From Thermaerobacter subterraneus DSM 13965 (GTDB taxonomy: Bacteria > Bacillota > Sulfobacillia > Thermaerobacterales > Thermaerobacteraceae): a stretch of 64,000 nucleotides of DNA. The notes beneath the pieces are model-generated. The model ran no database searches. It had not been told where the DNA came from and saw nothing but the letters and a program-made list of their open reading frames with translations. Where the stretch lies: the NCBI RefSeq assembly GCF_000183545.2, contig NZ_JH976535.1:1737837-1801836 (forward strand). Direction: 5' to 3'. The position numbers and the translations under genes were made by a program. Positions 8,562 to 27,022 of this stretch are shown here, in pieces; within the stretch, counting starts at the first letter, position 1; the number at the start of each line of letters is the position of its first letter.

Positions 8562-9899
8562 TCAGCATTCAGCGGTCGCCATACCAGGACGCCCGGCATG
8601 AGCCGTAGCGAGGGTACTCCAAAGGGGGATCTCGAACCGGCACAGCGGGTCGGTGATGAAGGGCACCGGCCGGGCCGGGTCATAGAGGTAGACGTCCGGC
8701 GGCTCGTCCGTCGCTGGCGGCTCGATGGAGAGCACGCCGTCGCCGAAGCGGCTGTTGGCCCGGCCGCCGCTGCGCAGGTAGAACTTGGTCCACTGGGTGC
8801 GGGCCAGGGGCCACTCGTACTCGTCCCGCCAGTAGTTGGCGCCCATGATGAACAGGCTGACCGGCGGCTCGTCGCCGATGCCGTTGTCGATGCCCTTGAG
8901 CCAGTAATCCAGCCAGCGCAGCTCGTAGCCGTCCAGGTCGATCACGGCGTCAGGGCCGAAGTCCACCTCGCCCAGCTTGCGGCTGGCATTCACCTGGTGC
9001 CCCCAGGGCCCCATGATCAGCTTCTGTCCGCGCCGGGCCCGCTCGCTGGGGGCCTGCCGCACCATGCCGGCAAAGTTCAGGGGCGTGCCGATCTGCTCGT
9101 CGTCGTACCAGCCCGAGACGTGCAGCACCGGCAGGTCGATCTCGTGGAAGCGGTGCTGGTAGCGCAGGGGCTCCCACCACTCGTCCAGCGTGGGGTGGGC
9201 GCAGTCCTCCCGCCAGTGCCGGCTGACGAACCCCGCCGCCTCGTCCATGGTCAAGAGCGGCATGTGCTCGTAGACCTTCATCCAGTCGATCTTGTCCACG
9301 TACTGAAGAACCCGGCCATCGGTCATGCGGTTCCAGCACACGTGCATAGGCCCGGGCGTGCCCGTGGGCCACTCCACGTAGGGGTCCGACGGCGTCACGT
9401 GGACGATCATCGCCTTCAGGTGCGGCGGCTTCTCCAGGGCAGTGAGCCACTGGATGCGGCCAAGATAGGAGCCACCCCAGGTGGCCACGTCACCCGTGGA
9501 CCAGGGCTGGCTAGCCAGCCATTCGATGGCGTCGTAACCGTCCCGGGCGTCGTTACGGTAAGGGACGAACTCCCCCTCCGAGTCCCCCCGCCCGCGCACG
9601 TCCATCCAGACGAAAACATAGCCGTGCTTGGCAAAGAAGTTCCCGTAATGCCAGGCCCGCTGCGAATTCTTGTTGTACGGCGTCCGGGCCAGGACCACGG
9701 GGAAGCGGCCCGGGGCATCGGGGCGATAGATGTCCGCGGAGAGGGTGATTCCGTCCCGCATGGGAACGCGGACGTTGAACTCGTGGCGAACGGGGTAAAC
9801 AGGACGGGATGGATCCCGATTACTGAAGAGGGACGACCGGGACGACGGCGACCCGTTGGAAGCCACGGAGGGTTGGGGCGTATCACCAAGCCAGGCCAA
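8562..9899 (-). pseudogene. CocE/NonD hydrolase, second copy, C-terminally truncated
   Basis: Tandem duplicate of the 5476-7182 hydrolase. From the shared TTG start (9899, behind AAAGGAGG) through PVPFITDPL it is nearly identical to copy 1, including WGGSYLG, SGWYDD and MGPWGH. The next residues, CRFEIPLW, correspond to RFEIDLW about 95 residues further on in copy 1, so most of the jelly-roll domain was deleted at one joint near 8640. The last 15 or so residues then diverge to a new stop. The catalytic triad remains but the product is 445 aa instead of 568. The frame is open 45 codons further upstream to 10034, but homology and the ribosome binding site support 9899. It may be inactive or may be a short form. 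Confidence 0.85.
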
Positions 9900-10096
9900 G
9901 GCGAGTCCTCCTTTCTGCCTTCCGGTGGTAGGACCGGCATCCCACCCGCAGAGCCACGTTTCCGGACCTCCAGCATTGGGGAGGTAGCCAATCTGGCAAC
10001 AGGGCACCACCGTGGAAATCTGTATAGACACCAATCAACAGCTTTCGAGAACATCAATCATTCTTGACAAGTTTTAGATTCACGGAGGAATAGGCG

Positions 10097-10408: not shown

Positions 10409-11170
10409 TCAGCGCCGCCGGTAATAACGGGCGTAATAACCCATCCGCTTGAGTGGCACGTCGTTCAGGATGACCCCCAGAATGCGGGCGCCGACCTTCT
10501 CCAGAGCCTCCTTAGCCTTCTGAGACTGCACGTAGTCAGAGTTCTCGGCACTGACCACCAGAATCACGCCATCCACCTGCGGTGCCAGTACCAGGGGATC
10601 CGCCACCATACCTGGCGGCGGAGTATCATAGATCACGACCTCATAATCATTGATCAGCCCGGTGAATAGCTCCTGGGCGCGACGTGACCCCAGCAGCTCT
10701 GCCGGGTTGGGCGGTGTCGGACCGGCGGGCAGGACCCACAGGTTCTTGGCACGGGGCACAGGCTGCAGCGCCTCTTCCAGGGTGCAGGAACCAGCAAGGA
10801 CCGCGGAGAGGCCATACACGTTCGGCAGCCCGAACAGTGCCGACTGCACCGGCCGCCGCATGTCTGCATCGACGAGAACGGTTGCTTTCCCGGCGTTGGC
10901 GAAGCTCAAAGCCAGGTTCGCGGCAGTCAGAGACTTACCTTCCCCCGGCAGTCCGCTGGTGATCATGATACTACGAAGCGGCTTGTCTACTGCTAGGTAC
11001 TGCAGATTCGTACGGACGAGCCGGTAGGCCTCCACGGCCGGGGAATGCGACTGTAGCCCGCCCAAAAAGCCGGCTTCGTGACCTTCATCCGCAGCACGGA
11101 ACCGCTCCGAGCCGCTCGACCGGTACCGTAAAGCCAGGTTTTGGTGCTCAGCTCCGAAAGCTTCCGCCAA
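10409..11170 (-). CDS. BY-type tyrosine kinase (CpsD/CapB-like), copy 2
   Basis: Autophosphorylating tyrosine kinase (253 aa) for exopolysaccharide control. Walker A is SGLPGEGKS, Walker A' is VLVDADMRRP, Walker B is VVIYDTPPP and the Tyr-rich tail is YYARYYRRR. Start TTG 11170 lies behind AAGGGAGG, 15 bp after the stop of the Wzz-like gene. The Wzz C-terminal cytoplasmic tail normally activates such split kinases, so this is the copy with an obvious partner. It differs from copy 1 mainly in the first 40 residues and a dozen substitutions. Confidence 0.93.
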   Translation of the reverse strand: MAEAFGAEHQNLALRYRSSGSERFRAADEGHEAGFLGGLQSHSPAVEAYRLVRTNLQYLAVDKPLRSIMITSGLPGEGKSLTAANLALSFANAGKATVLVDADMRRPVQSALFGLPNVYGLSAVLAGSCTLEEALQPVPRAKNLWVLPAGPTPPNPAELLGSRRAQELFTGLINDYEVVIYDTPPPGMVADPLVLAPQVDGVILVVSAENSDYVQSQKAKEALEKVGARILGVILNDVPLKRMGYYARYYRRR

Positions 11171-11185: not shown

Positions 11186-11863
11186 CTACAGGTCAATATG
11201 CGGGATCACGCCGAGGACGGGCAAGCCAAGTCGCCTTTCGACGGCAACCTCGTCCCTGATGCGGCGGTCGAACATCTCCAACGCAAAGATAACTCCGGTC
11301 CCCACCATGAGGCCTAACACCGACGCCAGCACAAGCTCTAGCACTGGCCGCGGAGTCACGGGCTTCTCCGGCGGTGCCGCGGGATCGAGCAGGACGAGCC
11401 GCTCTTCCTGCATAACGTCCGCCGCCACACGCGTCATAACCTGTGCCGCGGCGGTGGCGATCCAGGCCGATTCTGCGGGCGACCCTGCCCGAACCACGAC
11501 ATCCAACGTTTGTGATTCCTCGTGTGCTTCAATCCGAACCCTCCTTCGGTACTCACTCGGGGACCAATCTAGCTTGAGCTCTTGTAGAACAGCAACCATA
11601 ACCCTCCGACTGGACAGGATTTCCTGATAGGCCGGGACCAAGTTGCGGTACAGTTGCAACGTTTGCAAATCCGTGACCGCCTCGTTAGGAGCCAGGACGA
11701 TGAGCCGGGCCTTGGCTTCGAACTCGGGCGTAACAATTATGATTCGCACCACCGCCACCAGAATAGAGAAGACTACCAATAGCGCCACGGTTCGCCAGCG
11801 CCGGAATATGGGCGACATCAAGTCGCCAACCGAAACACTGGCATCCCCAACTTCCCAACTCAA
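11186..11863 (-). CDS. Wzz/CapA-type chain-length regulator and kinase activator
   Basis: Membrane protein of 225 aa with two transmembrane segments (about 24-44, VALLVVFSILVAVVRIIIV; and about 178-198, LELVLASVLGLMVGTGVIFA) flanking an extracytoplasmic domain. A proline-rich PAAPPEKPVTPRP motif precedes the second segment, as in Wzz proteins, and a short cytoplasmic tail could contact the BY-kinase. It controls polysaccharide chain length with the kinase and polymerase. TTG 11863 is the likely start, with GAGGTGG upstream. It is first in a two-gene unit with kinase copy 2. Upstream the GC content falls sharply. Confidence 0.88.
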   Translation of the reverse strand: MSWEVGDASVSVGDLMSPIFRRWRTVALLVVFSILVAVVRIIIVTPEFEAKARLIVLAPNEAVTDLQTLQLYRNLVPAYQEILSSRRVMVAVLQELKLDWSPSEYRRRVRIEAHEESQTLDVVVRAGSPAESAWIATAAAQVMTRVAADVMQEERLVLLDPAAPPEKPVTPRPVLELVLASVLGLMVGTGVIFALEMFDRRIRDEVAVERRLGLPVLGVIPHIDL

Positions 11864-12109
11864 CTAGACCACCTCGCATCACAATAAAGCCTACATACCT
11901 AAAGGACTCACCTGCAACATTCATTCACAATAATACCGGTACCCGGCCCCTTCCTTTGAACCTAGAACCCTTTTTCTCTCGCCTTCGGTCCTTCCCAAAC
12001 TCCAACATCCTGTCGCGTGCAAGTTCTCAATCTCACAGCACCCGCGAAGGGACCGTAAACCTTGCATTCAGAACCACTTCCACCACAACGCCACTAATTA
12101 GTCGTCATG

Positions 12110-13015
12110 TTACCACCATAGCCTTCCATAATGCTGCCTTAAGTATTTCATTGCCCTTCTAGACAGAATACGCCTGGGTTGCGGGGCACCAATCCCCTCT
12201 TTAATTGCTACCCAAACCATGTCTGGTCGTCGGTACCGAACCATCAATTCGGAACCCATATAGACTATCCATGACACCAGGTACACTACTCTATAAGGAA
12301 GCGGTAGGTACCTTCTACCAACCCACAGATGATTGCGCAAGCCATAGAATGCTTTCCATTCTCTTGAATAACTGCTCGTGGCCACGCAATGCCGAACCTT
12401 AATTCTGGGATTATAAAGGATAGTCCATCCGGTTTCGATTAGCCGAAATGCTAAGTCCAACTCTTCGCATCCATACTTCATGTCCGCACCATACAATCCC
12501 ACAGCATTCAAAACGGCACGCCGAACGGCATAACCTCCACCGTTGAAATAGGAAACATACCCTTCCTGACTGACGATATTCGGATCCCGCCGTATCGCTA
12601 GCCTCGAAAACGGCACGTGTAACGTGCCACCTGGATCGTCGTAAATGTAGAATGCAATAAGACCAATAGAGCTGTCGCGGTCAAGCGCATTAACAACCTG
12701 CACCAGCGCATCATCATCGACAAATGCTGCGTCATCGTCTAGTACGACTAATACAGAGCCCTTTGCTTCCTCAGCCAGACGATTACGTGCTCCAGAAACC
12801 CCCAACCGAGCGTCGGTACGTACATATCGTATAGGTAAACTCTCCGAAAAACTTTCAGCGACCTCGCGAGCACTAATTTCTGGCGCATCATCTAGCACCA
12901 CTACCTCTACATTCCAACCTGGCGGACGTGCCTGCCGAGCAACACTAGAAAGACAGTACCTTAGCGCATCAGGACGATTCCTCGTAGCGATTAACACCGA
13001 CAAAGCCCTTACCAT
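12110..13015 (-). CDS. Glycosyltransferase family 2
   Basis: GT-A fold glycosyltransferase, 301 aa, probably adding a sugar to a lipid-linked polysaccharide repeat at the inner membrane face. Residues 5-110 show the GT2 pattern: SVLIATRNRPDALRYCL, VVVLDDAP, ARLGVSGARNRL and the metal-binding LDDDAAF. The acceptor side has NGGGYAVRR and CEELDLAFRL (ExDL). A hydrophobic patch near residue 245 (YRVVYLVSWIVYMGSE) may associate with the membrane. ATG 13015 follows GGGAG with 7-nt spacing. It overlaps the upstream membrane protein gene by 47 bp. GC content is near half, far below the flanks, suggesting transfer. Confidence 0.9.
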   Translation of the reverse strand: MVRALSVLIATRNRPDALRYCLSSVARQARPPGWNVEVVVLDDAPEISAREVAESFSESLPIRYVRTDARLGVSGARNRLAEEAKGSVLVVLDDDAAFVDDDALVQVVNALDRDSSIGLIAFYIYDDPGGTLHVPFSRLAIRRDPNIVSQEGYVSYFNGGGYAVRRAVLNAVGLYGADMKYGCEELDLAFRLIETGWTILYNPRIKVRHCVATSSYSREWKAFYGLRNHLWVGRRYLPLPYRVVYLVSWIVYMGSELMVRYRRPDMVWVAIKEGIGAPQPRRILSRRAMKYLRQHYGRLWW

Positions 13016-14150
13016 TCGACCACTCCCTTCTCACGCTTTCTCCGCCCAATCTCGACTTCCGGATAATGTTACGAATGCCATGCTCAATGCCGCTCGCAGC
13101 TGGAGGTAGAAGCATCAAGATAACAGGCATTCTGTGTCGTACCGCGCCCACTACATGGTACTCCACGATCGCCATTGAGATAGCCACCATCGCCACGCAC
13201 GCCATCCACACCGTCTCCCTACGTTGCTTTTGAGTGACAAAAGAACAAAGACCGGCCAAAATCACCAAGCTCGAAAAGACGGCATCCAAGGCCGCTACCA
13301 CCATTTGAAACGGTCTATCACTAGTACCGAACGGCGACAGCAAGAACCAAAGCAACAGCTTTGGAGCATCTTTGACTACGTCCACCCACGATGTCCATTG
13401 GACTTGGCCATATACCTTGTCCTCACCGTACCGGATGACTGCATAGTTCCTTTCCCAGGCAATCCTCTCAGGGGAGAGAAGATGATCGAGGTTCAACAAG
13501 CCCATTACCCACCGCCCGGCCCACACCATTGCTACGCTACCGAAGACCAACATTGGAATTCGCCACTGAGACTTTATTCTTGCAACCACAAAAACCAGAT
13601 GAACTAACAGGACTACAGGTAAAAACTCGGGCCGCAACAGTACGACGCACAATCCGCCCATAACCGCCATAAACAGATGCATACCTGTGCCACGCGACGC
13701 TCCGTAGATAAATAGAGACCACGTCATCAAGAACATCGACTCCCGAACAGGCGCACTGCTGTATCGTGCGAGCGCTGGCCACAATAAAAACAGCATACCG
13801 AAAATAAACAATACTCTAACGTTAGCCCTCAAAGCCAACTCGCGATATGCCAGCCACGAAACACCGGCGGTTAACGCATTAAAAACTCCGTTAAGCATGA
13901 CAGAGACTATGGGATCCGGCCCAAACGCCAATTGCAAAGGAGCATAGACTACATAATAGAATCGGACGGCCAAATTGTCAGTTCTCAGCCCATCTACGAA
14001 TTGGCTCATGTACAGCTTACTATCCGGGATATCTGGTGCCATTGCCATAGCATTTTGCACGATATAGAGCAACACTGGTGCCAGAGAGATGAGAATGAAT
14101 AACATCACACACGCGTTTTGAGTCGACTGTCCCCCAATCGTTCGTTCCAT
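12969..14150 (-). CDS. Multi-pass membrane protein in polysaccharide cluster
   Basis: Hydrophobic protein of about 393 aa with roughly 9-10 membrane segments (for example VMLFILISLAPVLLYIV, VLFIFGMLFLLWPALA, LCVVLLRPEFLPVVLLVHLVFVV). A charged loop between central segments contains RYGEDKVYGQ. The overall design and the place between GT2 and GT4 genes fit a Wzy-like polymerase or an ArnT/GT39-like membrane glycosyltransferase, but I do not recognise a decisive motif. ATG 14150 has GAGG five bases upstream; a GTG at 14192 in the same frame lacks one. The 3' end overlaps the following GT2 gene by 47 bp. Low GC like its neighbours. Confidence 0.75.
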   Translation of the reverse strand: MERTIGGQSTQNACVMLFILISLAPVLLYIVQNAMAMAPDIPDSKLYMSQFVDGLRTDNLAVRFYYVVYAPLQLAFGPDPIVSVMLNGVFNALTAGVSWLAYRELALRANVRVLFIFGMLFLLWPALARYSSAPVRESMFLMTWSLFIYGASRGTGMHLFMAVMGGLCVVLLRPEFLPVVLLVHLVFVVARIKSQWRIPMLVFGSVAMVWAGRWVMGLLNLDHLLSPERIAWERNYAVIRYGEDKVYGQVQWTSWVDVVKDAPKLLLWFLLSPFGTSDRPFQMVVAALDAVFSSLVILAGLCSFVTQKQRRETVWMACVAMVAISMAIVEYHVVGAVRHRMPVILMLLPPAASGIEHGIRNIIRKSRLGGESVRREWSNGKGFVGVNRYEESS

Positions 14151-14184
14151 ATTGACCTCACCGAACGCCCTCATCTGCAGCGTG

Positions 14185-15294
14185 TCATTCACCGACTAGC
14201 ATTTGAATCAGTTCAAGGTACCTCGTCACTGCCGCTTGATACGAAAACTCCTGAGCACGCTCAATCAACACAGACCTATTATGATCTTCACTCAAGGCAC
14301 TGAGCATCGCATCACTCAGAGCTTCGGCGTCTCCAACAGGCACAAGCCTACCATAGACGCCCCCAGCTAAAATCTCGCGTGGACCGTGAGGACAATCTGT
14401 TGACACAACGGGGAGACCGGCCGCCAACGCCTCTACCAGCACCATGGCGAATCCTTCCCATCTGGAAGACAACACGAACAAATCTGCACGTGCAAAATAT
14501 TTATATGGGTTCGAAACAAAGCCAGCCAACCATACAGATGACTCGAGCCGCAACTCGTGAACAAGGGCCTCAAGTTGCGGGCGTTCCTCACCTTCACCGA
14601 GAATCACTAGTCTCATAGGCGTTTTCCGACAACTCTTTGCAAATGCTCTAATCAGGTTCGGAAAGTCCTTCGCTTTCGTAAGGCGGCCGGCCCCTATTAC
14701 CACCGGGATGTCCTGGTCGTCCTGAAACCATGGGTGATCTACGGATTCCCTCATTAATAACTCCATCTCGGGAGTTACGACGGGATTGTAAATCACATAC
14801 GTCTTATCCTCAGGCAACCCATGAGCCAATAAATCCCTCTTCACCCCCTCCGATACCGCCACAATAGCATCCGCTTCGGCATAGAATCGCCGAACAAGCA
14901 TTGGCATGACACGTCCCTGCAAATTTCTCGCATTTTTCGAATGAATTGAGAGCGTGCTATGCTCGGTCACGACCACCTTACACTCACTCTTCGCCATACG
15001 ACGCGCCAACAAAGCCACGATGTTGGCGTGGTCCAACGCCGAAATCAATATGCTTGGCCTGACTTCGTTAAGGTATCGTACCAGCGGCCTTATTGCCAAT
15101 AAGGTTCGCCGGACATTCAACTCGATCAGCCGTACACCCGGGGCCAGATATTCGCGCATTGGACCATTTCCATCAAGGACAACTAAATCTACCGTTACAC
15201 CGCTCTCCGTGAAGCCGCGGGCCAAGTGTACAAATACTCGTTCCGCACCAGCTCCTCCAAGGTTCGGTATGAACAGAGCTATGCGCTCCACCAT
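14185..15294 (-). CDS. Glycosyltransferase family 4
   Basis: GT-B glycosyltransferase (369 aa). The N-terminal half starts IALFIPNLGGAGAERVFVHL, the usual acceptor-side GT4 opening. The C-terminal half binds the nucleotide sugar: VIGAGRLTKAKDFPNLI, LVILGEGEERPQLE and the E-x7-E motif in SSRWEGFAMVLVEALAAG. It likely transfers a hexose onto the growing lipid-linked unit. ATG 15294 follows GGAGG with 5-nt spacing; an in-frame start 11 codons upstream lacks such a site. It ends 34 bp before the membrane protein gene. Low GC and AT-rich codons set it apart from the genome. Confidence 0.92.
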   Translation of the reverse strand: MVERIALFIPNLGGAGAERVFVHLARGFTESGVTVDLVVLDGNGPMREYLAPGVRLIELNVRRTLLAIRPLVRYLNEVRPSILISALDHANIVALLARRMAKSECKVVVTEHSTLSIHSKNARNLQGRVMPMLVRRFYAEADAIVAVSEGVKRDLLAHGLPEDKTYVIYNPVVTPEMELLMRESVDHPWFQDDQDIPVVIGAGRLTKAKDFPNLIRAFAKSCRKTPMRLVILGEGEERPQLEALVHELRLESSVWLAGFVSNPYKYFARADLFVLSSRWEGFAMVLVEALAAGLPVVSTDCPHGPREILAGGVYGRLVPVGDAEALSDAMLSALSEDHNRSVLIERAQEFSYQAAVTRYLELIQMLVGE

Positions 15295-15627
15295 CGCCGC
15301 CTCCAATTGCGTCTTCAATTCTAGCAACCTGAGTAATGCCGCGCCGTGTACGCCGTTGTCCTATGACTTAACGTTTTCCTTGCAGCCCCTTCCCAGCAAC
15401 ATTACGGTACACCAAGCTATAAATTCTCCTCTCCTTACGGAACTTGAGCTTTACTACGTCGTCTAACGTCATGATTTCCCCGTTCTACAGAAACATGAGC
15501 AAAAACCAATACCTGTCAAACGTTTTATCGTGCGACGATCCCGTGGCCGGGGTCAACGCCGCTGTGGATAACCCACAGTCATATACTGCCATGAAAACCT
15601 GGATAACCATCACGCTAACACTTTCTT
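15295..15627. other. AT-rich intergenic stretch without recognisable gene
   Basis: About 330 bp between the GT4 start and the next gene's stop. All frames are broken and no family motif or terminator with a T-tract is visible. It probably holds the promoter and leader of the GT4 gene. Confidence 0.5.
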
Positions 15628-16464
15628 CTAACCGGCGTGCCGTCCGTGTACCATGCGTGTATGAATGCATTGAGCAACGCGCATGAACGGAGAACTTAAA
15701 GGTGCGAAGGCCCCAATATATATCATGATGGACAACGGCACCATCCATGTCGCATGATTCCACGCAATTCGAACAGCAGTCTTGGCTGCTGTTCGAAAAC
15801 GCATTTGTGCAGCAATACTGCCGCGGAAGTATTGACCCTTGTGGCGACGGTGCCGCGCTACGATTACAGGTAAGCACGACACTGGCCCGTATCGCATACA
15901 CCGCTCGATGGCATCGTAATCAATTGCACAGCTTAACGTCTCATCAAAACCACCAATCAATGACAATATCTCCCGTCGATACATTACTGTGGAGTGAACA
16001 ATAGGATTTCCCAAAGAAAGCAGGCTCTTAATGCGCCAACCACCTTCGGGCGGGCACCGCCTTCCAAGGATACGACCATTTTCGTCAATCAGTTCAGCCC
16101 ATCCGCCTACCAATACAACATTGGGATTGCTACGCAAAAATTCCACCTGAACTTCGAGGCGATTGTTCACAGATATATCATCCGCGTCGTTGACGGCAAC
16201 AAAAATCCCACGACAGTGTCGCAGCCCCAGATTCAACGCAGCGGCCCGCCCCACGCGCTGAGCGCATATCATCCTGAAACGTTTGTCTCTTTCGATATAG
16301 GATTGGATGATTTCTCTGGACCGGTCCGTCGATCCATCGTCGACGATTACTACTTCAAAGTCACGAAAGGTCTGATTCCTCAACGACTCAAGGGCATCTG
16401 GTAAATACCTTTCACCATTATAAACAGTCATGAGCACACTCACAGTGGGCATCTTGTGCATCAT
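15628..16464 (-). CDS. Glycosyltransferase family 2
   Basis: GT2 glycosyltransferase of 278 aa. The catalytic fold is clear: PTVSVLMTVYNGERYLPDAL, FEVVIVDDGSTDRS, GRAAALNLGL and NDADDIS as the DxD-type metal site, then GGFDETLSCAIDYD. The C-terminus has one hydrophobic stretch (WMVPLSIMIYIGAFAPL) that may anchor it. ATG 16464 has GGAGATGAGAG upstream. It is the first recognisable gene of the low-GC sub-cluster in the direction of transcription. Confidence 0.92.
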   Translation of the reverse strand: MMHKMPTVSVLMTVYNGERYLPDALESLRNQTFRDFEVVIVDDGSTDRSREIIQSYIERDKRFRMICAQRVGRAAALNLGLRHCRGIFVAVNDADDISVNNRLEVQVEFLRSNPNVVLVGGWAELIDENGRILGRRCPPEGGWRIKSLLSLGNPIVHSTVMYRREILSLIGGFDETLSCAIDYDAIERCMRYGPVSCLPVIVARHRRHKGQYFRGSIAAQMRFRTAAKTAVRIAWNHATWMVPLSIMIYIGAFAPLSSPFMRVAQCIHTRMVHGRHAG

Positions 16465-16529
16465 CTCTCATCTCCATGGCCTCGATCGAGTGCAAACCAA
16501 AGTCCTTAAAGGGTACGCGATCCGTGCTG

Positions 16530-16670
16530 TCAGGTCTCTCGTCCGCGGATCAGCCGCAAAATCTGAAGTGAGAGGCCATGCTCGACTCTCCAACGGTAAC
16601 GCCTCCAAAGTCTCCGTGCCCCTATATTTGCACCCATAGAATGATCCATTCGCCCTGAAAGCCAATACAT
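16530..16670 (-). other. Possible small ORF or remnant (46 aa)
   Basis: ATG 16670 to TGA 16530 encodes a basic peptide beginning MYWLSGRMDHSMGANIGA, followed by an Arg/Trp-rich stretch and QILRLIRGRET. It is in a different frame from the longer open frame at the same place. No ribosome binding site is obvious and the frame is closed by a stop shortly upstream. It may be the tail of a lost polysaccharide gene or a chance ORF. The rest of the gap, 16671-16995, shows nothing else. Confidence 0.25.
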
Positions 16671-16995
16671 CACATACCGAATCGAGTAACCGCCTTCCCG
16701 CCCCTACTCGGTTTCTATGGCGGGGTAGTGCTACGGTGTGCCAAGTCTCTCTAGGATCTAGACTCGTCATGCACATTCCATATCTGGTTAATCAATTCCG
16801 GATATCGACGCTGAACAACCGCCTTGTTAATGCGTAGTTACCGTTCGAGTCAAAAGCAGAACACCTAGCCCAAGTCCCCATCTAATTTAGAGCAAGTCCC
16901 ACCCTAAATCCTGCCCGTCATCAGTGCACGCCCCGTACGTTAACCCCCGTGTGCGTATACGAGAGTAACACACTCGCCACATAGTGGGGAGAGAC

Positions 16996-18517
16996 CTACC
17001 TACGGCCAGATATGCCGGCTGAGGACCATACCTCCAGACGTAATCGTCGTGTGATCCGCTCGGCTGCCTTGCTGACGCTCTGCGGGAATAACATTACGGG
17101 AATCGTCCAGAACATGATCAGCAGGTCGAGACCGAGTCCCCACCGTGTGATGTAGAGCAGATCAAACCGGAGCTTTGAATCGGGGTCGGTATCGTATCGT
17201 CCCAGTACCTGGGCCAGTCCCGTGATCCCGGGCTTGACGGCCTCCCGGGCCCGGAACATCGCATTACGCCCTGCAAACTCCATCACCAGTTCGGGACGCT
17301 CCGGCCGCGGGCCCACCAAGCTCATTTCTCCCCGCAACACATTGAGGACCTGAGGCAATTCGTCGAGCCGAGTCGCTCGCAACCACTTTCCGACGCGAGT
17401 CACCCGCGGGTCGTCTTCTTGGGCCCAGACGGCACCCGTGAGCTTTTCGGCGTCCGGTACCATGGTACGGAATTTGATCAGTTCGAAAATCTTCCCGTCA
17501 CGGCCCACCCGCCGCTGGCGGTAGAACACAGGTCCCCGGTCCTCCAGCCAGATTAGGAGCGGCACGATCAGGAGGACGGGAAGGAACGCGACTAACTAAA
17601 AGCAACAGCGCTCCAGCCAGATCCAGGGTCCGCTTAACCGCTCTGAGTTCAATCGGCAATGCCAAACGATACACGGTCATCAACGGTATGTCACCGACGT
17701 GAGTCAGCCGCCCAGAAGCCATCAAGATCTCATACGTATTGGGCACGACATAGAGGTCCACCTGATGCCGTAGCGCCCAACTCACGATGCGTTCCCGGTA
17801 CTCCATTGGGACATCAGGGGCAAGGACCACACGGTCAGTCGCCGGTGGCGCCTCGAGGAAGTCAGCCGGCGTCAGCGCATGGCGAATCGAAACGTAGTCG
17901 GGTAGTCGTGCCTGCCACCCAAGGGGGTCGGCGGACACAAGGGTGACGTGGTGTTGGTAATACGCGTGCTTTGCACGGCGTACGAACGGAATCCGCCATA
18001 CAGAAAGGGAGATCGCGGTGAGGGTACCCGCGGTCACCTCCACTGCTCTCGAAACCCCACGATCAGGCACATAGAAATAAAGGGCGGCCATGGTGATAAG
18101 GACCGACCACAGAGTCGCCGTGGTGACATCCCGAGCTAACTCCATGAAGGGCCGGTGCAGGTCGCGATAACCCCTGTAGAGAGCAAGGAGAACAATGGTA
18201 GAAACCGTAGCAACGGCCGCCGCGAAACCGTCCGGTGAGACTGGCCCGCGGAAAAGCAGTGCCCGGAGTTCCTCCATGTCGCCGGCTAGCAAATGCCCCC
18301 CCACCTGGGCCGCTACGGCAATGATCATGTCGCCTGCCAGGAGCAGGACCCGGCGTGACCGTCGGCCGAATACCCGTCGTAATATGACGGGCTCGTTACG
18401 GGTAAAGGCTCCTAGTTCGGGTACAACCGCGCCCTTGACGGACCTGTGGGGTTGGGTGATCAATCCTGACAGTGAGTCGCCGGTTGGCCGTTCCCCGGCC
18501 TCCCCGGTGCTGCGCAT
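16996..18517 (-). pseudogene. Exopolysaccharide glycosyl-1-phosphate transferase, frameshifted
   Basis: Initiating sugar-1-phosphate transferase (WbaP/CpsE type) that loads the first sugar phosphate onto undecaprenyl phosphate. ATG 18517 lies behind GGGGGGG. The N-terminal half has four membrane segments and a CoA-binding-like region ending ILMASGRLTHVGDIPL. The C-terminal catalytic part, in another frame, has KFRTM, RLDELPQ and SLVGPRPERPE. The frames meet at a tandem CTAACTAA (17592-17599). Removing one 4-bp unit restores DLAGALLLLVAFLPVLLIVP with exactly the length of the homologous segment in the 20617-25359 protein. As written, the first reading frame ends at 17498 after a garbled tail. 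The separate catalytic frame (from 17565) has no clear start. Confidence 0.85.
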
Positions 18518-18562
18518 GACACACTTTCCCCCCCAACTTGTCCGCCGGTCCCCTTTATACAA

Positions 18563-18892: not shown

Positions 18893-20743
18893 TTACGGGG
18901 AACTTGTCGGGGGCGCGATTGACGTGAGCATGTCATCATACAAGCCTAGCAAACGCTGTGACATGATCCTCCACGAGAAATGCTCGTCGTAAATCCGGCG
19001 CGCTCGGACCGCGAAGGCCCGCCTCTCCTCTCCCGTCCACCCAGCGGCATCCTGCAGGGCGGTCTCCAGGCTGTCCGTGTCACCGTAGGGCACCACGTAC
19101 CCCAACTCCCAGGCTTTGACCCGCCGGTCGATCCCGGTGCCTTCTGCCACCACGATGGGCTTCCCCAGCCGCATAGCCTCAAACAGCTTGTTGGGGCTGG
19201 AGTACCGGTAATTGGGGACGGACGGGTCGTAGGTAGCCAGCAACACGTCGGCCCGGACGTAGACCTCCATGCAGCGGTGATGGGGCACGCGCCCACGGAA
19301 ACGAACGTTGGGCAAGGCCGCAGCCGCCTTCCGGATCAGGTATTCCTCCGCCCCGAACCCGCCCAGGTCCAGTTCCCACTCCGGGTGCCGGCGCATGACC
19401 TCAAGGAGTTCCAGCAGTCCCCGATCGGCCTGCAGCAGGCCGATGTATGCCAGGCGGAGCCCCCGCCAGGGCGGCAGCCCCCGAATCACATCCTTCGGAT
19501 CCCAATCCGGGCTGTTATAGACGATCTCCAGCCGGCGAGGGCGGGCCTTCCCCAGCTGGGGGAGGCGGTTGTCGTCCGCCAGGATCACGGCGTCAGCCCA
19601 CCCCAGGAGCCAGCGATCCACCCGGGCCAGGCAACGGCGCAGGAATCCAGGCAGTCCCCGCACCGTGTCGGCGCACCAGTCGAAGATGTCGTAGACCACC
19701 CGCTTCCCCAGGAGGAGCTTCACCAGCAGGGCGGGCACCAGCGTATCGAAATCGCAGGCGTGGATCATCGAATAGTACCGGCGGTGGAACAGGAGCCAGT
19801 ACACGAGATGCAACTGCCAGCGCAGCAGGGCCGGCAAGTTGCGCGTTCCCCCACCGTAGCGGCCTGGCGTGCGCAGGCGCACCAGTATGCCAAAGGGGGT
19901 CCCCTCTAGTTCCGGGAAGGCGCCCTCCCGGTCCCACCCCACCACCGTAACCTTAAAACCCCCGCGGGCCAGGGTCCGGGCGACCCGCTCCACCCGGGGG
20001 TCGGGTGCCACGGGATTGGACCTCAGGATCACCACTCCCTTCGTTCGGGGAGCGGCCGCCCGTGTCACGGCCCGGGCGGCGAGGTCCACCGCCCCGCCCA
20101 GGAAGAGGTATGCTAGGGTCCACTGCAGCGTCGCCCCGGGCTCCTTGACGAAGCCGCCCGCGGCGAAGAGGGCGCAGACCGCGTAGACCCAGCCGGGTCC
20201 ACCAGGCAACACAGGCGGGATGCCGGGGTGCAGGCGCCTCGCACTGGCCACCGTCAGGCGGGCGCCTGTCCTGAAGCCTTGGGAAGCCCCTCCTTCGCTC
20301 CGGCTGGTCGCAGGGGGCCGGGCTACGCCGGGCATGCCGCGGACCCAGTGCTGATGTCGGTGCTGTCCCGGCGGCCCGCCGGAGGGACAACTTCTCCTGG
20401 CCCCGCGGCGCCAGAGCCACCGGTCGCCCCCGGCCGCCAGCAGCCCCGCCAGGACCCCCGCCGCGGGCAACGGCCAGGGCCCGAAGTTCAGGTAGCCCTC
20501 CTGGGGCAGGGTCACGTTGAAACCGAAGCGGGTCTGCCCGTAGAAGCGCTTCCACCGGTGCTCGTTGAGCAGGTCGGCGGCCGTCCGCCAGCGGGTAGCC
20601 TGCCGGGCGGGAGGAGTCAGGAACCGGGCCGGGATGGCGGCCAGGGTCGACCCGCGGCGGAACCCGTGCTCGGCCGCATAGCCCCGGGCCAGGCCCCACC
20701 CGTTAGCGTGGTCCAAACTGAAGCCCTGGAGGAGGGGACCCAT
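18893..20743 (-). CDS. Truncated Wzy-like domain fused to GT4 glycosyltransferase
   Basis: About 616 aa if started at ATG 20743. The first about 260 residues match the second half of the polymerase domain of the upstream 1580-aa protein (EHGFRRGSTLAAIPARFLTP, then TRFGFNVTLPQEGYLNFGP) but lack its N-terminal membrane segments. From about residue 240 a GT4 domain follows: ILRSNPVAPDPRVERVARTL, HACDFDTLVPALL, YDIFDWCADTV, RLAYIGLLQADRGLLELL and NKLFEAMRLGKPIVV. No sugar-1-phosphate transferase domain follows. The 5' end overlaps the tail of the upstream gene by 127 bp and no good ribosome binding site is present, so translation may rely on coupling. A 5' deletion after duplication is the simplest history; the GT4 half looks intact. 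Confidence 0.75.
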   Translation of the reverse strand: MGPLLQGFSLDHANGWGLARGYAAEHGFRRGSTLAAIPARFLTPPARQATRWRTAADLLNEHRWKRFYGQTRFGFNVTLPQEGYLNFGPWPLPAAGVLAGLLAAGGDRWLWRRGARRSCPSGGPPGQHRHQHWVRGMPGVARPPATSRSEGGASQGFRTGARLTVASARRLHPGIPPVLPGGPGWVYAVCALFAAGGFVKEPGATLQWTLAYLFLGGAVDLAARAVTRAAAPRTKGVVILRSNPVAPDPRVERVARTLARGGFKVTVVGWDREGAFPELEGTPFGILVRLRTPGRYGGGTRNLPALLRWQLHLVYWLLFHRRYYSMIHACDFDTLVPALLVKLLLGKRVVYDIFDWCADTVRGLPGFLRRCLARVDRWLLGWADAVILADDNRLPQLGKARPRRLEIVYNSPDWDPKDVIRGLPPWRGLRLAYIGLLQADRGLLELLEVMRRHPEWELDLGGFGAEEYLIRKAAAALPNVRFRGRVPHHRCMEVYVRADVLLATYDPSVPNYRYSSPNKLFEAMRLGKPIVVAEGTGIDRRVKAWELGYVVPYGDTDSLETALQDAAGWTGEERRAFAVRARRIYDEHFSWRIMSQRLLGLYDDMLTSIAPPTSSP

Positions 20744-23700
20744 ACCCGGAATAGGCGCCTCACCACCGTGCGTAGCAGAACCCTGATGTCCCGAACCAGT
20801 CGCCATCCGGCCATATACCGGAGATCCCAAAGAACCTTCGCGGCAGGCGAAGTTTCGTACAGCCCTTCGACCTGCGCCAGGCCTGTCAGCCCTGGCTTGA
20901 CGGCCTCGCGGAGCCGGAAGGCCGGTTCGTCCAGGGAGAACCGCGCCGCCAGCTCCGGGCGCTCGGGCCGGGGGCCCACCAGGCTCATCTCGCCCCGCAG
21001 CACATTGACCAGTTGGGGCAATTCGTCGAGATGCGTGGCCCGCAATAGTCGTCCAATTCGCGTCACCCTTGGATCGTCCTGCCGGGCCCAGACGGGTCCG
21101 GTGCGGCGTTCGGCTCCAACCACCATGGTCCGGAACTTCAGGATGGTGAAGGGGCGGCCGTGAAGGCCCAGGCGCGTTTGGCGGTAGAGGACGGGGCCGC
21201 GGTCGTCCAGCCAGATCAGCAGGGGGATCAGGGCGAAGGCCCAGGCGAAGAGGACCAGCAGCGCCAGGCTCCCCACCACATCGAGAAGGCGCTTGGCCAG
21301 GCGGGCCAGCGGGGGCGGCTTGAGGGGGCCAATGCGCAGGAGGGGTGCGTCCCCCAGGCGGCTCCACCGGGCGCTAGCGACCAGCACCTCGTAGGGGTCG
21401 GGGATGAGGTCGACGGCCATGCCGTTGCCCAGCGCCCACAGGAGGATCTGGCGGCGGGCGGCCGGGGGGACGTGGCGGCCGATGAGGACCCGGGGAACGC
21501 GGGTGGAGGTCCGGAGAGCCGGAAGACGGCGCTCGGGCGACCGGGAGACCGGCGGCGGGGATTTTGGTGGCGGGGAGTCCGGTGGCGGGTTGCTGGTCCC
21601 CTTGGGTCGGGCGCTTTGCTTCGGGGCAACGTGGACGGACGGGTGGCCTAGGCCGGCGTTGGACCTGGACACGGAGCCCGGGGGTTCGCAGCCGCCGGGT
21701 TCCGCGGGTTCGTAGGCCCAAGGGTTCGCGGGTTCGCAGCCCCCGGGTTCGGTGCAATCCAGTCCACTGGTACAACCCCATGCATTGGATTTGAAGGGTT
21801 CGGGCTGCCGATGCCCTTCTTCCTCGTGGACCGTCACCACGTCCCGATACAGCCGAAGAAGGCGCCGCTCCATCCGAGGCCAGCCCCAGCGACGGCGGTA
21901 CAGCCGCCGGGCTCGGCGCGAGAAGGCCCGGCGCCGGGCCGGGGTCCACCCCGCCGCCTCGGTCAGGGCGGCCTCCAGCGCCTCGACGCTCCCGTACGGC
22001 ACCACCCACCCCAGCCGGTGGCGCCGGACGCGGCGGTCGATGCCCGTCCCCCGGGCCACGATCACCGGCTTCCCCAGGGCCATGGCCTCGAAGACCTTGC
22101 TGGGGCTGGCGTAGCGGTGGTTGGGGATGGCGGGATCGTAGAGGGCGGGGATCACGTCGGCCCGGGCGTCAAGCTCCCGGCAGCCGGCGTGGGAGACCCG
22201 GCCGTGAAACCGCACGTTGGGTAGGCCCGCCGCCAGCCGGCGGAGGACCGGTTCTTCCGGACCGAAGCCGGCCAGGTCCAGGTGCCATTCGGGGTGACGG
22301 GCCAGGACGGCCAGCAGTTTCTGCAGGCCCCGGCCGGGCTGGAGGGTTCCCACGTAGGCGAGGCGCAGGGCAGGCCTTCCCGCCGCGGCCCGGTGCAGAA
22401 TTTGCCTTGTCCTCTGTTCCCGACCCTCGGTCCAATCCCGGCACCCCGTCCCTGCCTCGTCCCGTGGCCCTGGCGCTTCGCCCTCGCCCTGCCGCGGGGC
22501 CCGTCCGGCCCTTTCGCGCTCGCTCTCCCCCTGCCGCTCCCCCTCCGGCTTCTTCCCTTGATGGGCTCCGTGGGATGGTGCCCTGGCCGTGGATGGCGTG
22601 GTCCCCTGCCTCTTCCCCTCCGGCTGGTCCCGGCGCTCCGGCTGCCCCTCGCCCTCCCGCTTCGCCTGCTGCTCCCCCTCCCAGTCCGGGCTGTTGTAGA
22701 TCACCGCCAGGCGGCGGGGGCGGGCGGCGCCCAGTTGGGGCAGGCGGCGTTCGTCCGCCAGGATCACGGCGTCGGCCCGGGTGAGGAGGCGCCGGTCCAG
22801 GACGGCCAGGAGGCGGCGGGCGGGGCCGGGCAGGCCGGCCACGGTGTCGGCATACCAGTCGAAAATGTCGTAGATCACGGCGATGGCACCGGGCGGGCGG
22901 CAGGTGGGGTGGCCACCCGGGTGGGGGGACCGGCTCCGGGTCCAGATCCGGGACGCGAGGCCGGGCCACCGCGGCCGGTACGAGGCGGCCTTGGTCAGCA
23001 AGGCCGGAACCAGGGTGTCGAAGTCGCAGGCGTGGATCACGTCGATCTGGCGGCGGTGGCGGAGGAGCCAGCCCAGGAGGCGGGCCTGCCAGCCCAGCCA
23101 GGCGGGAAGGTGGCGCAGGCCGCGGCCGTAGACGGCTCGGTTCCACCCCACCACCTGGACCTCATAGCCCGCCCGGGCCAGGCTGCGGGCCACCCGCTCC
23201 ACCCGGGGGTCGGGGTCGACGGGGTTGGAGCGGCAGATCACCACCCGCACGGGGCGGCAGGAAGCGGGGGTGGCAAGCTGGCGGGCCTGCCCCGGCGCCG
23301 GCATCCGGGCTGGGGCAACCGGCGGGTGGGCGGACTGTGGAGCTTGCCTCGGGGTCGAAGCGGGCCGGAGGAGGGTCGGTGGAGCCCCCGTCCGGCGGGG
23401 GGCGGTGGCACCGGCCGGATCGGCCGTCACGGGGCGGACCACGAGGCGAGGCCCGGCGTCGGCGATCCGGCGGCTGGTGCCGCCCCCATCGCCAGGATCC
23501 CCGCCGAAGAATCGGGAGCCAAGCCCGACCACGAGCCGGGCGCCGGCCTCGATGGCGGCCCCCACCAGCAGGTAGGCCGCGGTCCACTGCAGGGTGGCGG
23601 CGGGTTCCTTGGTGAAGGCCGCGGCGGCCAGCACCGCGCAGGCGGTGTAGATCTGGAAGGGCGCGCCAACGAGCCGAAGCCGGCGCCAGCCTCTGCATCG

Positions 23701-25359
23701 AGGGTCCCAGCGGGGGCAAGGGCGCCTGCGGGTGATATAGCGGTCCCCCGCGGCGGCCAGCAGGCCGGCCAGGGCGCCCGCCGCGGGCAGCGCCTCCGGC
23801 CCGAAGTTCAGGTAGACCTCCTGGGCCAGGGAGACGTTGAAGCCGAAGCCGGTCTGCCAGTAGAACTGGCGCCAGCGGTAGGTGTTGAGCACATCGGCCG
23901 CCGTCAGCAGGCAACGCTCGCCGCGGGCGGCGGGGGTGAGGATGCGGGCCGGGACGGCGGCCAGGGTCCGGCCCCCTAGGAACCCGTGCTGCGTGGTGAG
24001 GCCCTGGGCCAGCACCCAGACGTCGGGCCCGTCGAAGTTGGGGGTGCGGGCAAAGAAGTGAAGGGCGGCCGGGACGGGGCGCGGCGCCGGCTGCGGTTCG
24101 GAGTGCGAGGCGTTGGCCGCGGACGCCGGCCGTACAGCCTGGGCAGGGGGTGCCATCCAGGGCTGGGCACAGGCGGGTACGGCCGCGGCCGTCCTTGGGA
24201 TTGCGGCGTCACCTGCAGCTGCGACTGGGACGGGAACCCCACCCGGCGCCTGCCCGGAAGGGGGTTGGATCGTGGGTCCGTCGGATCGGGCCGTCGCGGC
24301 CGCTGTAGGGCGCCCCCCTTCTACCACCCCGGCCACCGCCGTCGCCAGGGGCCGGGCACCGGCCAGGACGACGAGGAGCCCGGCGACCAGGACGGCCAGG
24401 CGGCGGAAGGTCCAGGGGCGGAGGCGCTCGTCCACGAAGGCCGTGGTCACCAGGGCGGTTAAGAGGTAGCCACGTTGGTAAAGGAGCAGCAGCAAGACGA
24501 CCGCCCAGAGGCTTCCCGCCACCAGGGCCGCCGGGGCTACCGAGCCTGCCGAGACTGCCGGCCCCCAAAGGAAGCCCCTCCGGTGGCGATCACGGTCACC
24601 ACCCCCGCCAGCGCTGCCACCACCATCCTCACCACCGTCACCGGTACGATGCCCGAGGGTTTCGCGAATGGTGCATACAGCGGCAGCTATCCGCGCCAGG
24701 GGCAAGCTGGCGGCCAGCGGGATCACGGCCAGGGGGAAGAGGATCTTCCCATAGGGGACGGCGGCGGTCAGCGTGGTTCCGGCCCGGTGACCCGGGAGCC
24801 AGGCGCCGCCGGAGAGGACGTGCATCGCGACGACGGCCGCCGTGCCGAGCAACAGGGACACGAGCCAAGCAACGGCCAGCGAGGGTGAGGCCGGGGTGGC
24901 CGGCATGGCCAGAATGGCCGGCAGTGTATCCTGGTTTACACTCTCCCCGCCTTCCCGGCGCCCGGGGGCATCCTTCGTCCTGCGTTTCGCCGGCATCCGG
25001 GCGGGCAACCCATAGGCGGTCAACCCATAGGCGGCCATCAGGATGGCGGCAAAGACCAATTGCATGGCCAGGCCGCGGTTGTAGGCCGCCCAGGCGGCCG
25101 GTTCGACCGGCGCCGGGGGCAGGAAGGACACCGGGGCGCCGCCGGGGATGAGGATGGCGGGGGTGCCGTAGAGCAGGTAGCGGCCGGTCAGCAGGTTGAG
25201 CAGCGGGCGGGCGCCATAGGCCACCGCCTCGAGTCCCAAGAACACGTGAAAGCCGGTGAACAGCGGGCGGCGGGTGCGCCAGAAGGCGAAAGCAACTAGG
25301 GCGAAATGCGCCAGGGCCAGGACAGCCGTGGCGCCGGGTGTGGTGAGGAATCCGTCCAC
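20617..25359 (-). CDS. Triple fusion: Wzy-like polymerase, GT4 and sugar-1-phosphate transferase (1580 aa)
   Basis: One uninterrupted frame from GTG 25359 (AAGGAGG seven bases upstream). Residues about 1-640 are a multi-pass membrane domain like O-antigen/oligosaccharide-repeat polymerases, with GFGFNVSLAQEVYLNFGP near 500. Residues about 700-1180 are a GT4 domain (CRSNPVDPDPRVERVARSL, YDIFDWYADTV, SPSKVFEAMALGKPVIV) carrying an inserted Arg/Glu/Gln/Gly-rich segment of about 100 residues after YNSPDW. After a Pro-rich linker with EPGGCEP repeats (about 1185-1290) comes a bacterial sugar transferase (ILKFRTM, DELPQL, SLVGPRPERPE, GLTGLAQVEG) to about 1525. The last about 45 residues overlap the next gene. 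Such a protein could start, extend and polymerise a repeat unit. Each domain is known separately; the fusion is unusual. Whether the polypeptide is processed is unknown. Confidence 0.85.
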   Translation of the reverse strand: MDGFLTTPGATAVLALAHFALVAFAFWRTRRPLFTGFHVFLGLEAVAYGARPLLNLLTGRYLLYGTPAILIPGGAPVSFLPPAPVEPAAWAAYNRGLAMQLVFAAILMAAYGLTAYGLPARMPAKRRTKDAPGRREGGESVNQDTLPAILAMPATPASPSLAVAWLVSLLLGTAAVVAMHVLSGGAWLPGHRAGTTLTAAVPYGKILFPLAVIPLAASLPLARIAAAVCTIRETLGHRTGDGGEDGGGSAGGGGDRDRHRRGFLWGPAVSAGSVAPAALVAGSLWAVVLLLLLYQRGYLLTALVTTAFVDERLRPWTFRRLAVLVAGLLVVLAGARPLATAVAGVVEGGRPTAAATARSDGPTIQPPSGQAPGGVPVPVAAAGDAAIPRTAAAVPACAQPWMAPPAQAVRPASAANASHSEPQPAPRPVPAALHFFARTPNFDGPDVWVLAQGLTTQHGFLGGRTLAAVPARILTPAARGERCLLTAADVLNTYRWRQFYWQTGFGFNVSLAQEVYLNFGPEALPAAGALAGLLAAAGDRYITRRRPCPRWDPRCRGWRRLRLVGAPFQIYTACAVLAAAAFTKEPAATLQWTAAYLLVGAAIEAGARLVVGLGSRFFGGDPGDGGGTSRRIADAGPRLVVRPVTADPAGATAPRRTGAPPTLLRPASTPRQAPQSAHPPVAPARMPAPGQARQLATPASCRPVRVVICRSNPVDPDPRVERVARSLARAGYEVQVVGWNRAVYGRGLRHLPAWLGWQARLLGWLLRHRRQIDVIHACDFDTLVPALLTKAASYRPRWPGLASRIWTRSRSPHPGGHPTCRPPGAIAVIYDIFDWYADTVAGLPGPARRLLAVLDRRLLTRADAVILADERRLPQLGAARPRRLAVIYNSPDWEGEQQAKREGEGQPERRDQPEGKRQGTTPSTARAPSHGAHQGKKPEGERQGESERERAGRAPRQGEGEAPGPRDEAGTGCRDWTEGREQRTRQILHRAAAGRPALRLAYVGTLQPGRGLQKLLAVLARHPEWHLDLAGFGPEEPVLRRLAAGLPNVRFHGRVSHAGCRELDARADVIPALYDPAIPNHRYASPSKVFEAMALGKPVIVARGTGIDRRVRRHRLGWVVPYGSVEALEAALTEAAGWTPARRRAFSRRARRLYRRRWGWPRMERRLLRLYRDVVTVHEEEGHRQPEPFKSNAWGCTSGLDCTEPGGCEPANPWAYEPAEPGGCEPPGSVSRSNAGLGHPSVHVAPKQSARPKGTSNPPPDSPPPKSPPPVSRSPERRLPALRTSTRVPRVLIGRHVPPAARRQILLWALGNGMAVDLIPDPYEVLVASARWSRLGDAPLLRIGPLKPPPLARLAKRLLDVVGSLALLVLFAWAFALIPLLIWLDDRGPVLYRQTRLGLHGRPFTILKFRTMVVGAERRTGPVWARQDDPRVTRIGRLLRATHLDELPQLVNVLRGEMSLVGPRPERPELAARFSLDEPAFRLREAVKPGLTGLAQVEGLYETSPAAKVLWDLRYMAGWRLVRDIRVLLRTVVRRLFRVWVPSSRASVWTTLTGGAWPGAMRPSTGSAAGRPWPPSRPGS

Positions 25360-25478
25360 CCCGCGTCCTCCTTCCGTGGATCGCCGCGCGGCCGTCGATC
25401 TCTGAGCGGCCGACCGGCCGTGGAATCCGTCCCGGCGGTGGTCCGTGCGGGGAAGGCCGGACTCGGGCGGGACGGGTC

Positions 25479-25819: not shown

Positions 25820-25876
25820 GCGGTATGACGCGAACCCGTTACTGCGGGCGGTTTGGCAAAGGAAAGGGGCCAGGCC

Positions 25877-27022
25877 ATGGCCCAGAGGATTGAGGTTCCG
25901 GTTCACCCAGCGACTTTGCGCTGGGCGGTACAGCGGGCCCAGGTCGGGCCGGAGGGGTTGGCGCGGGCGGTCGGCGTGACGCCCGAACGAGCCTTGGCGT
26001 GGCTGGAGGGAAGGGCACGGCCCACGTACAGGCAGGCGCGCCAGATTGCCCGGCGGCTTGACGTTTCCCTTGGGCAGTTGCTCCTCCCCCCACCTGAACG
26101 GGTCACCTTGCCCGTCGCCGATTTCCGCCGTGGTCGCCTGGCCATGGACGAACCTAGCCCCGCGTTGTTGACCATCCTCTATGACGCCCTGCGCAAGCAG
26201 GACTGGTGGCATGAGGTACACCGGGGAAGGCACTTGGATTTCGTCGGCAGTTTCAACTGGAGGCAAGCCCGACCTACCGACGTGGCGGAAGCCATCCGAA
26301 AGGTCATTCCAGTCCAGCAGGAGCAGCGCCAGGCCCGCGATTGGGGCGACTTTCTGAGCCGGCTTGCTGCCGCTGCGGAAAAGGCCGGCATTCTGGTCTT
26401 GCGCCGTGGAATCCTCGGTTACAACACCCACCGCCCCCTCGACCCGGAGGACTTCGCAGGATTCGCCCTGGCCGATCTGACGGCACCGCTGATCTTCATC
26501 AACACGCGGGATTACGTCGCGCGACGTAACTTCACCTTTGCCCATGAATTGGTGCACATATGGCTCGGCCAGAGCGGCGTGGACGACAATTTGGAGCTCG
26601 AGACGCCCACCGACGTTGAGAAATTTTGCGACCGTGCAGCAGCCGAGTTGCTGGTTCCGGAAGAGGACTTCCGGCACGTCTGGGCGAGTGCATCCGGCGA
26701 TCCGCACAAGGTTGCCGAACACTGCAGCCGGGTGTTCTGTGTCAGCCTCTGGGTCGTAGCACGCCGGGCGTTAGAACTTGGCCTCATTGCCAGGGATGAA
26801 TATCGGGATTTAATGGAACGTTACCAAACCGCGCTCCGCCGGCGGAGAAGCGAAAACCGCGGCGGCAATCCCTTCCGAAACATCGAGGTGTATAACAGTC
26901 CCACGTTCACTAGCGAAGTGATTGATGCCACCCTGCGGGGTGAGCTGGGATACGGCCAGGCGGCGTCCCTATTGGGGCTTAAGATCTCTACATTCGTCGC
27001 TTATTTGGAGCGTCGGATATAA
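25877..27022 (+). CDS. XRE-type HTH plus ImmA/IrrE-type zinc metallopeptidase
   Basis: Protein of 381 aa joining an N-terminal helix-turn-helix (about residues 8-62, EGLARAVGVTPERALAWLEG and ARQIARRLDVSLGQLL) to an ImmA/IrrE peptidase domain. The zinc site is HELVHIWLG near residue 222, with a downstream EKFCDRAAAELLVP helix supplying the third ligand. In such proteins the peptidase cleaves or releases a repressor or partner. ATG 25877 follows GGAAAGGGG; a TTG at 25853 is an alternative. Its TAA is directly adjacent to the ATG of the PIN-like gene. Pairs of HTH-ImmA and DUF4411/PIN genes are known as a toxin-antitoxin-like arrangement, which is the likely role here. Confidence 0.88.
   Translation: MAQRIEVPVHPATLRWAVQRAQVGPEGLARAVGVTPERALAWLEGRARPTYRQARQIARRLDVSLGQLLLPPPERVTLPVADFRRGRLAMDEPSPALLTILYDALRKQDWWHEVHRGRHLDFVGSFNWRQARPTDVAEAIRKVIPVQQEQRQARDWGDFLSRLAAAAEKAGILVLRRGILGYNTHRPLDPEDFAGFALADLTAPLIFINTRDYVARRNFTFAHELVHIWLGQSGVDDNLELETPTDVEKFCDRAAAELLVPEEDFRHVWASASGDPHKVAEHCSRVFCVSLWVVARRALELGLIARDEYRDLMERYQTALRRRRSENRGGNPFRNIEVYNSPTFTSEVIDATLRGELGYGQAASLLGLKISTFVAYLERRI

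Follow-up and report, generated by a model that had tools for sequence, protein, structure and literature searches.

One Thermaerobacter reading frame joins a Wzy-like block, a GT4 glycosyltransferase and a sugar-phosphate transferase

The window, a 64,000-nucleotide stretch of the Thermaerobacter subterraneus genome (G000), contains an open reading frame on the minus strand (20617..25359; ORF reading and translation) that begins with GTG and encodes 1580 aa. Seven bases 5' of this start lies a strong Shine-Dalgarno sequence, AAGGAGG (25367..25373, minus strand), which is identical upstream of the start in T. marianensis (G001) and in one (G002) of the two other Thermaerobacter genomes compared (G002 and G003). 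The domains of the encoded protein run from a polytopic Wzy-like block through a GT4 glycosyltransferase to a monotopic sugar-phosphate transferase (PGT). An earlier note on this DNA described the frame, its strong start, and the same succession of three domains joined by long linkers; all of this is borne out, the linkers being of low complexity.

The Wzy-like block (residues 1-615; 23515..25359, minus strand, as are all parts of the frame) contains four low-complexity loop insertions and was delineated by its stand-alone homologues of 494, 446, and 461 aa, by TIGR04370 matches of homologues, and by hydropathy. It is followed by a linker (residues 616-702; 23254..23514), recognized by alignment and by clean interspecies indels that are all multiples of 3, and by the GT4 glycosyltransferase (residues 703-1176; 21832..23253), whose two lobes are separated by an Arg/Glu/Gly-rich insertion (residues 897-990; 22390..22671). 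A second linker (residues 1177-1283; 21511..21831), defined by alignment, indels, and shuffling, leads to the PGT (residues 1284-1536; 20752..21510; PF02397, TIGR03025), which consists of the C-terminal half of a CoA-binding-like domain and a complete monotopic catalytic core. The last 44 residues (1537-1580; 20617..20751), in which we found no PGT homology, run out of frame into a duplicated wzy remnant and are probably functionless. A gene encoding an HTH and M78 (ImmA/IrrE-like) peptidase protein lies at 25853-27022, divergent from the fused gene.

The GT4 and PGT domains are both clearly recognized by Pfam; the Wzy-like block has no profile match of its own. GT4 profiles match residues 1000-1150 (E 6e-14), the C-domain scoring 52.8 bits with PF13692 (cut-off 27) and 45.2 bits with PF00534 (cut-off 26.4), while the start of the N-lobe was placed by homology at about residue 703. 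PF02397 matches residues 1356-1534 over positions 1-176 of 179 (E 1e-59, 201 bits versus a cut-off of 27), and the core contains LDELPQ and PRPERPE motifs; the fused PGT is a PF02397 member with a full catalytic core. The TIGR03025 match, however, begins only at position 179 of 445 and scores below the cut-off, and homology to the PGT of a second gene set downstream starts mid-domain. The fused PGT therefore resembles the large PGTs (WbaP/WcaJ; TIGR03025/TIGR03023) from the middle of the CoA-binding-like domain onward, catalytic core included, but it does not qualify as one of them: what precedes this point in a large PGT, namely a four-helix N-terminal domain and the other half of the CoA-binding-like domain, is replaced by GT4 and a linker. 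Loss of these N-terminal parts is not necessarily fatal, because small PGTs, a class described in PMC10942596, are known to function with the catalytic core alone.

As read from the translations of G000, G001, and G003, in which GT4 is in frame with the PGT core, the predicted proteins have the layout of Bi-PGTs, in which a functional domain is joined to the N- or C-terminus of a PGT core in one frame. The Bi-PGT class as introduced in eLife RP91125 (PMC10942596) likewise has a monotopic PF02397 core fused to another functional domain, whereas the fusion reported here adds two further pathway enzymes, one of them a polytopic Wzy-like protein. We found no description of a Wzy-GT-PGT fusion in the open-access literature searched, a scope outside which the primary Bi-PGT paper (PMC7848588) falls.

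For the hydrophobic residues 1-615, no polymerase match was obtained in Pfam or NCBIfam, even at E 10. Two stand-alone homologues, of 446 aa (G266) and 461 aa (G385), do match TIGR04370, the oligosaccharide repeat unit polymerase family, with E values of 2.5e-5 and 3.2e-9, respectively. These matches span most of the model, but with scores of 36.3 bits for one and 23.5 bits for the other they fall below the curated cut-off of 40, and we therefore refer to the block as Wzy-like rather than counting it as a family member. In G266, a GT4 gene directly follows the Wzy-like gene and a PGT gene lies 3.3 kb further on, three separate genes in the same order as in the fusion; in G385, the cluster includes a PF01943 flippase, a PGT, GT2 and GT4 genes, and a UDP-galactopyranose mutase. 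The hydropathy profile of a compact homologue reveals 10 clear helices, probably with an eleventh, against the 10-14 expected of such polymerases, and a 112-residue loop before the last ones; together with the pattern of positive charges, it suggests that the large loop is probably outside and the C-terminus cytoplasmic. The block resembles TIGR04370 polymerases in its distant sequence relationship through two homologues, its predicted polytopic layout with a large loop, and its occurrence in EPS clusters, but differs in scoring under the family cut-off, in its expanded low-complexity loops, and in its C-terminal fusion to GT4. An hhalign comparison of the block with Wzy_C proteins of the genus gave a probability below 1% and comparison with flippases gave nothing, a search of solved structures with the Wzy profile recovered no relative, tblastn of the Wzy-like homologues against plasmids gave no match, and an AlphaFold model from two sequences was not usable (pLDDT 40). 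The Thermaerobacter Wzy-like loops and the linkers contain fast-changing simple-sequence expansions (GGTGRN and GGACGG units; for example, 24555-24687, and 7150-7500 of L023), which lengthen the Wzy-like block by up to 280 aa relative to the sister genus.

The locus is a tandem duplication. Downstream of the fused gene lies a second set, also on the minus strand, that consists of a wzy remnant retaining only the C-terminal half (20063..20745, within an 824-aa frame at 18893-21367), an intact GT4 gene in frame with that remnant (18893..20074), and a full-length PGT gene (16996..18562) whose frame is interrupted near 17597 by a 4-nt insertion, leaving ORFs 17498-18562 and 16996-17565. The second-copy PGT is intact in G002 (505 aa) and G003 (498 aa), and the second set is absent from T. 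marianensis. The GT4s of the first set form one clade (support 100/99), as do its PGTs (100/100). A census of PF02397 matches showed that each of the four Thermaerobacter genomes has a single complete PGT, which is fused in G000 and T. marianensis and stand-alone in G002 and G003. With no other complete PGT in either genome, G000 and T. marianensis probably have a functional fused PGT; judged from the genomes, it is difficult to account for this pattern if the fused PGT is inactive where no second complete copy exists.

Further polysaccharide genes lie on the minus strand within the window. A Wzz chain-length determinant (11186..11863; PF02706) adjoins a MinD/ParA-type ATPase (10409..11170; PF10609, PF01656) that is probably its tyrosine-kinase partner (CapB-like), and these are accompanied by two GT2 genes (12110-13015 and 15628-16464), a GT4 gene (14185-15327), and a gene for a 407-aa membrane protein (12969-14192) that has no Pfam match and only a weak NCBIfam match to a putative glycosyltransferase family. 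The sole PF01943 (flippase) match in G000 is about 0.4 Mb away from this cluster. T. marianensis lacks Wzz and the neighboring cluster, and the pathway may therefore be lost there. From 12000 to 17000, where GT2 and GT4 genes lie, GC content is about 50% against 70% in the surrounding DNA, and this stretch is probably an EPS cassette that was acquired. The window also contains two similar-sized ATPases of the Wzz-associated MinD/ParA type (7687-8460 and 10409-11170), only one of which adjoins Wzz, and two S15-family peptidase genes near each other (5476-7182 and 8562-10034).

In the sister genus, represented by Bacillota MAG ZC4RG37 (G004; QGUQ01000032.1; L026/L037), the same three enzymes are encoded in the same order, with a Wzy block about 50% identical to that of the fusion; unlike the fusion, however, they are the products of three separate genes with 4-nt stop/start overlaps, the PGT is full-length, and large insertions are lacking. 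The wzy-like stop overlaps a possible GT4 start at GTGA, and the GT4 stop overlaps the PGT start at ATGA, 3' of GGGGAGGAGG. The fusion or its remains is present in all four Thermaerobacter genomes, and the frame is continuous in three of them (G000, G001, and G003). In T. marianensis, the fused protein is 1706 aa long and 68% identical; in G003, the PGT ends about 30 residues early, after GLTGLAQVER; and in G002, the fusion is broken by a 1-nt deletion in the insert between the GT4 lobes, and the PGT core is gone from KFRTMV onward. The earlier note would have abandoned the fusion had homologues in relatives always been split at the linkers, which describes the sister genus but not the genus itself, where three of four frames run through. 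Across the class, the Wzy block was detected in 5 of 154 genomes, all of one family, and in two further genomes among 398 sampled from the phylum, while a broader Wzy profile added three weak partial matches. Of the PGT matches listed for 299 genomes of the phylum and 154 of the class, none outside Thermaerobacter lies in a frame longer than 927 codons. The two longest such frames, of 883 and 927 codons elsewhere in the class, were rejected as ordinary large PGTs with a spurious N-terminal extension, their translations revealing no in-frame second domain.

Openness of the frame is weak evidence by itself, because GC content is 70-79% and shuffled linkers are often open (14-55% of trials; 15-45% for the G000 linkers). 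Beyond chance, as judged from sequence comparison, is the retention of the frame in other species across strongly diverged linkers, including that of G003, where it persists through a linker of almost unrelated sequence. Because the unalignable loops make the whole DNA alignment too noisy, the count was restricted to clean gaps within the two linkers that flank GT4. These indels among G000, G001, and G002 measure 87, 12, 12, 57, 12, 15, 15, and 15 nt, and every length is divisible by 3; for eight independent indels the chance would be (1/3)^8, or about 0.00015, an optimistic figure because these are indels of repeat units. Furthermore, the fused domains are under purifying selection: dN/dS lies mostly at 0.2-0.5 for the Wzy core, at 0.23-0.42 (about 0.3) for the GT4 C-lobe, and at 0.08-0.30 for the PGT catalytic core, whereas the linkers have values of 0.5-0.8 and the insert between the GT4 lobes one of about 1. 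Between G000 and T. marianensis, synonymous divergence drops from 0.47-0.72 in the N-terminal part of the Wzy-like block to 0.02-0.1 in its C-terminal end and GT4 (20617-25359 versus L023, L024, and L025), which suggests recombination between species inside the fused gene.

We consider it fairly probable that an overlapping wzy-GT4-PGT operon gave rise to this gene by a genus-specific fusion, and that its product is one membrane-anchored chain acting in a Wzz/Wzy-type pathway. Against this stand the damage to GT4 and PGT in G002, the shortened PGT of G003, the missing Wzz and neighboring cluster in T. marianensis, the failure of the Wzy block to reach any profile cut-off, and the presence of a canonical Wzy_C polymerase near this cluster in G002 and G003. 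The same damage, the chance openness of shuffled linkers, the out-of-frame tail, and the spurious long frames of other GC-rich relatives would also fit a decaying relic of a duplicated operon, kept open by the rarity of stops at high GC, in which the fused GT4 and PGT no longer matter. We regard this as unlikely, since dN/dS is well below 1 in all domains, linker indels are exclusively in frame, the only complete PGT of G000 and T. marianensis is the fused one, and the spurious long PGT frames elsewhere do not carry an in-frame second domain.

It is quite improbable, in our estimation, that internal translation starts or cleavage in the low-complexity linkers release separate working proteins. 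Conserved domains between diverging linkers are compatible with such a scheme, as are an ATG before GT4 kept in G000, G001, and G002 and a GTG right after GT4 in G001 and G002, the latter with a weak AGGA upstream in G002; yet that ATG is missing from G003, the GTG is GGG in G000, neither linker of G000 contains an in-frame start preceded by a Shine-Dalgarno sequence, and a linker frame that should drift freely stays in frame. We give least credence to the view that the first block is some other polytopic envelope protein (a ligase, a GT-C enzyme, or a transporter). The lack of a direct profile match or a solved relative, the negligible hhalign probability with the Wzy_C proteins, and the existence of canonical Wzy_C genes in the same genomes would agree with it, but near full-length TIGR04370 matches in two homologues and a predicted topology in which a single large loop precedes the final three helices speak against it, as does the G385 cluster, where this homologue is the sole polymerase candidate seen alongside the flippase, PGT, and GT genes.

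Under the favored reading, that of an operon fusion, the three genes would ancestrally have overlapped stop to start, as seen in the sister genus; the operon would have been duplicated in tandem and one copy would have lost its internal stops, simple loss of the overlapping stops giving the fusions. Sequence comparison shows that the fused PGT no longer has a four-helix domain at its N-terminus, that only half of the CoA-binding-like domain is left, and that low-complexity sequence has come to fill the loops and linkers. In the membrane-anchored chain predicted to result from translation as a single product, the PGT core would load sugar phosphate onto polyprenyl phosphate in the inner leaflet of the membrane, GT4, held close by its tether, would attach another sugar at the cytoplasmic face, a separate flippase would move the lipid-linked repeat unit across the membrane, and the Wzy-like part, its catalytic loop facing outward, would polymerize it at the outer face. 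The concern of the earlier note that such steps normally take place on opposite membrane faces poses no contradiction, since hydropathy places the large polymerase loop outside and the C-terminus in the cytoplasm, the side to which GT4 and PGT belong. Tethering may raise local concentration, but alone could not bring the intermediate across the membrane. To call the protein a single-chain polysaccharide synthase goes too far, as the pathway needs a flippase and other glycosyltransferases and two of the four species have a truncated or deleted fused PGT.

The enzymes of the Wzy pathway are thought to act as a complex, although direct contacts are hard to prove. Tentatively, from the sequences, the fusion might constitute a single-chain machine in which initiation, sugar addition, and polymerization are physically tied and lipid-linked intermediates are kept near one complex that spans both faces, and which would be the only monotopic initiating transferase of T. 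marianensis. A polymerase naturally joined to a glycosyltransferase and the initiating transferase would reveal which partners tolerate tethering and would pin down how the C-terminus of the Wzy-like part is oriented in the membrane, besides providing a thermostable construct for structural studies; the duplicated locus, with its reciprocal loss of fused and stand-alone PGTs, would be a small natural experiment on the fusion of operon genes.
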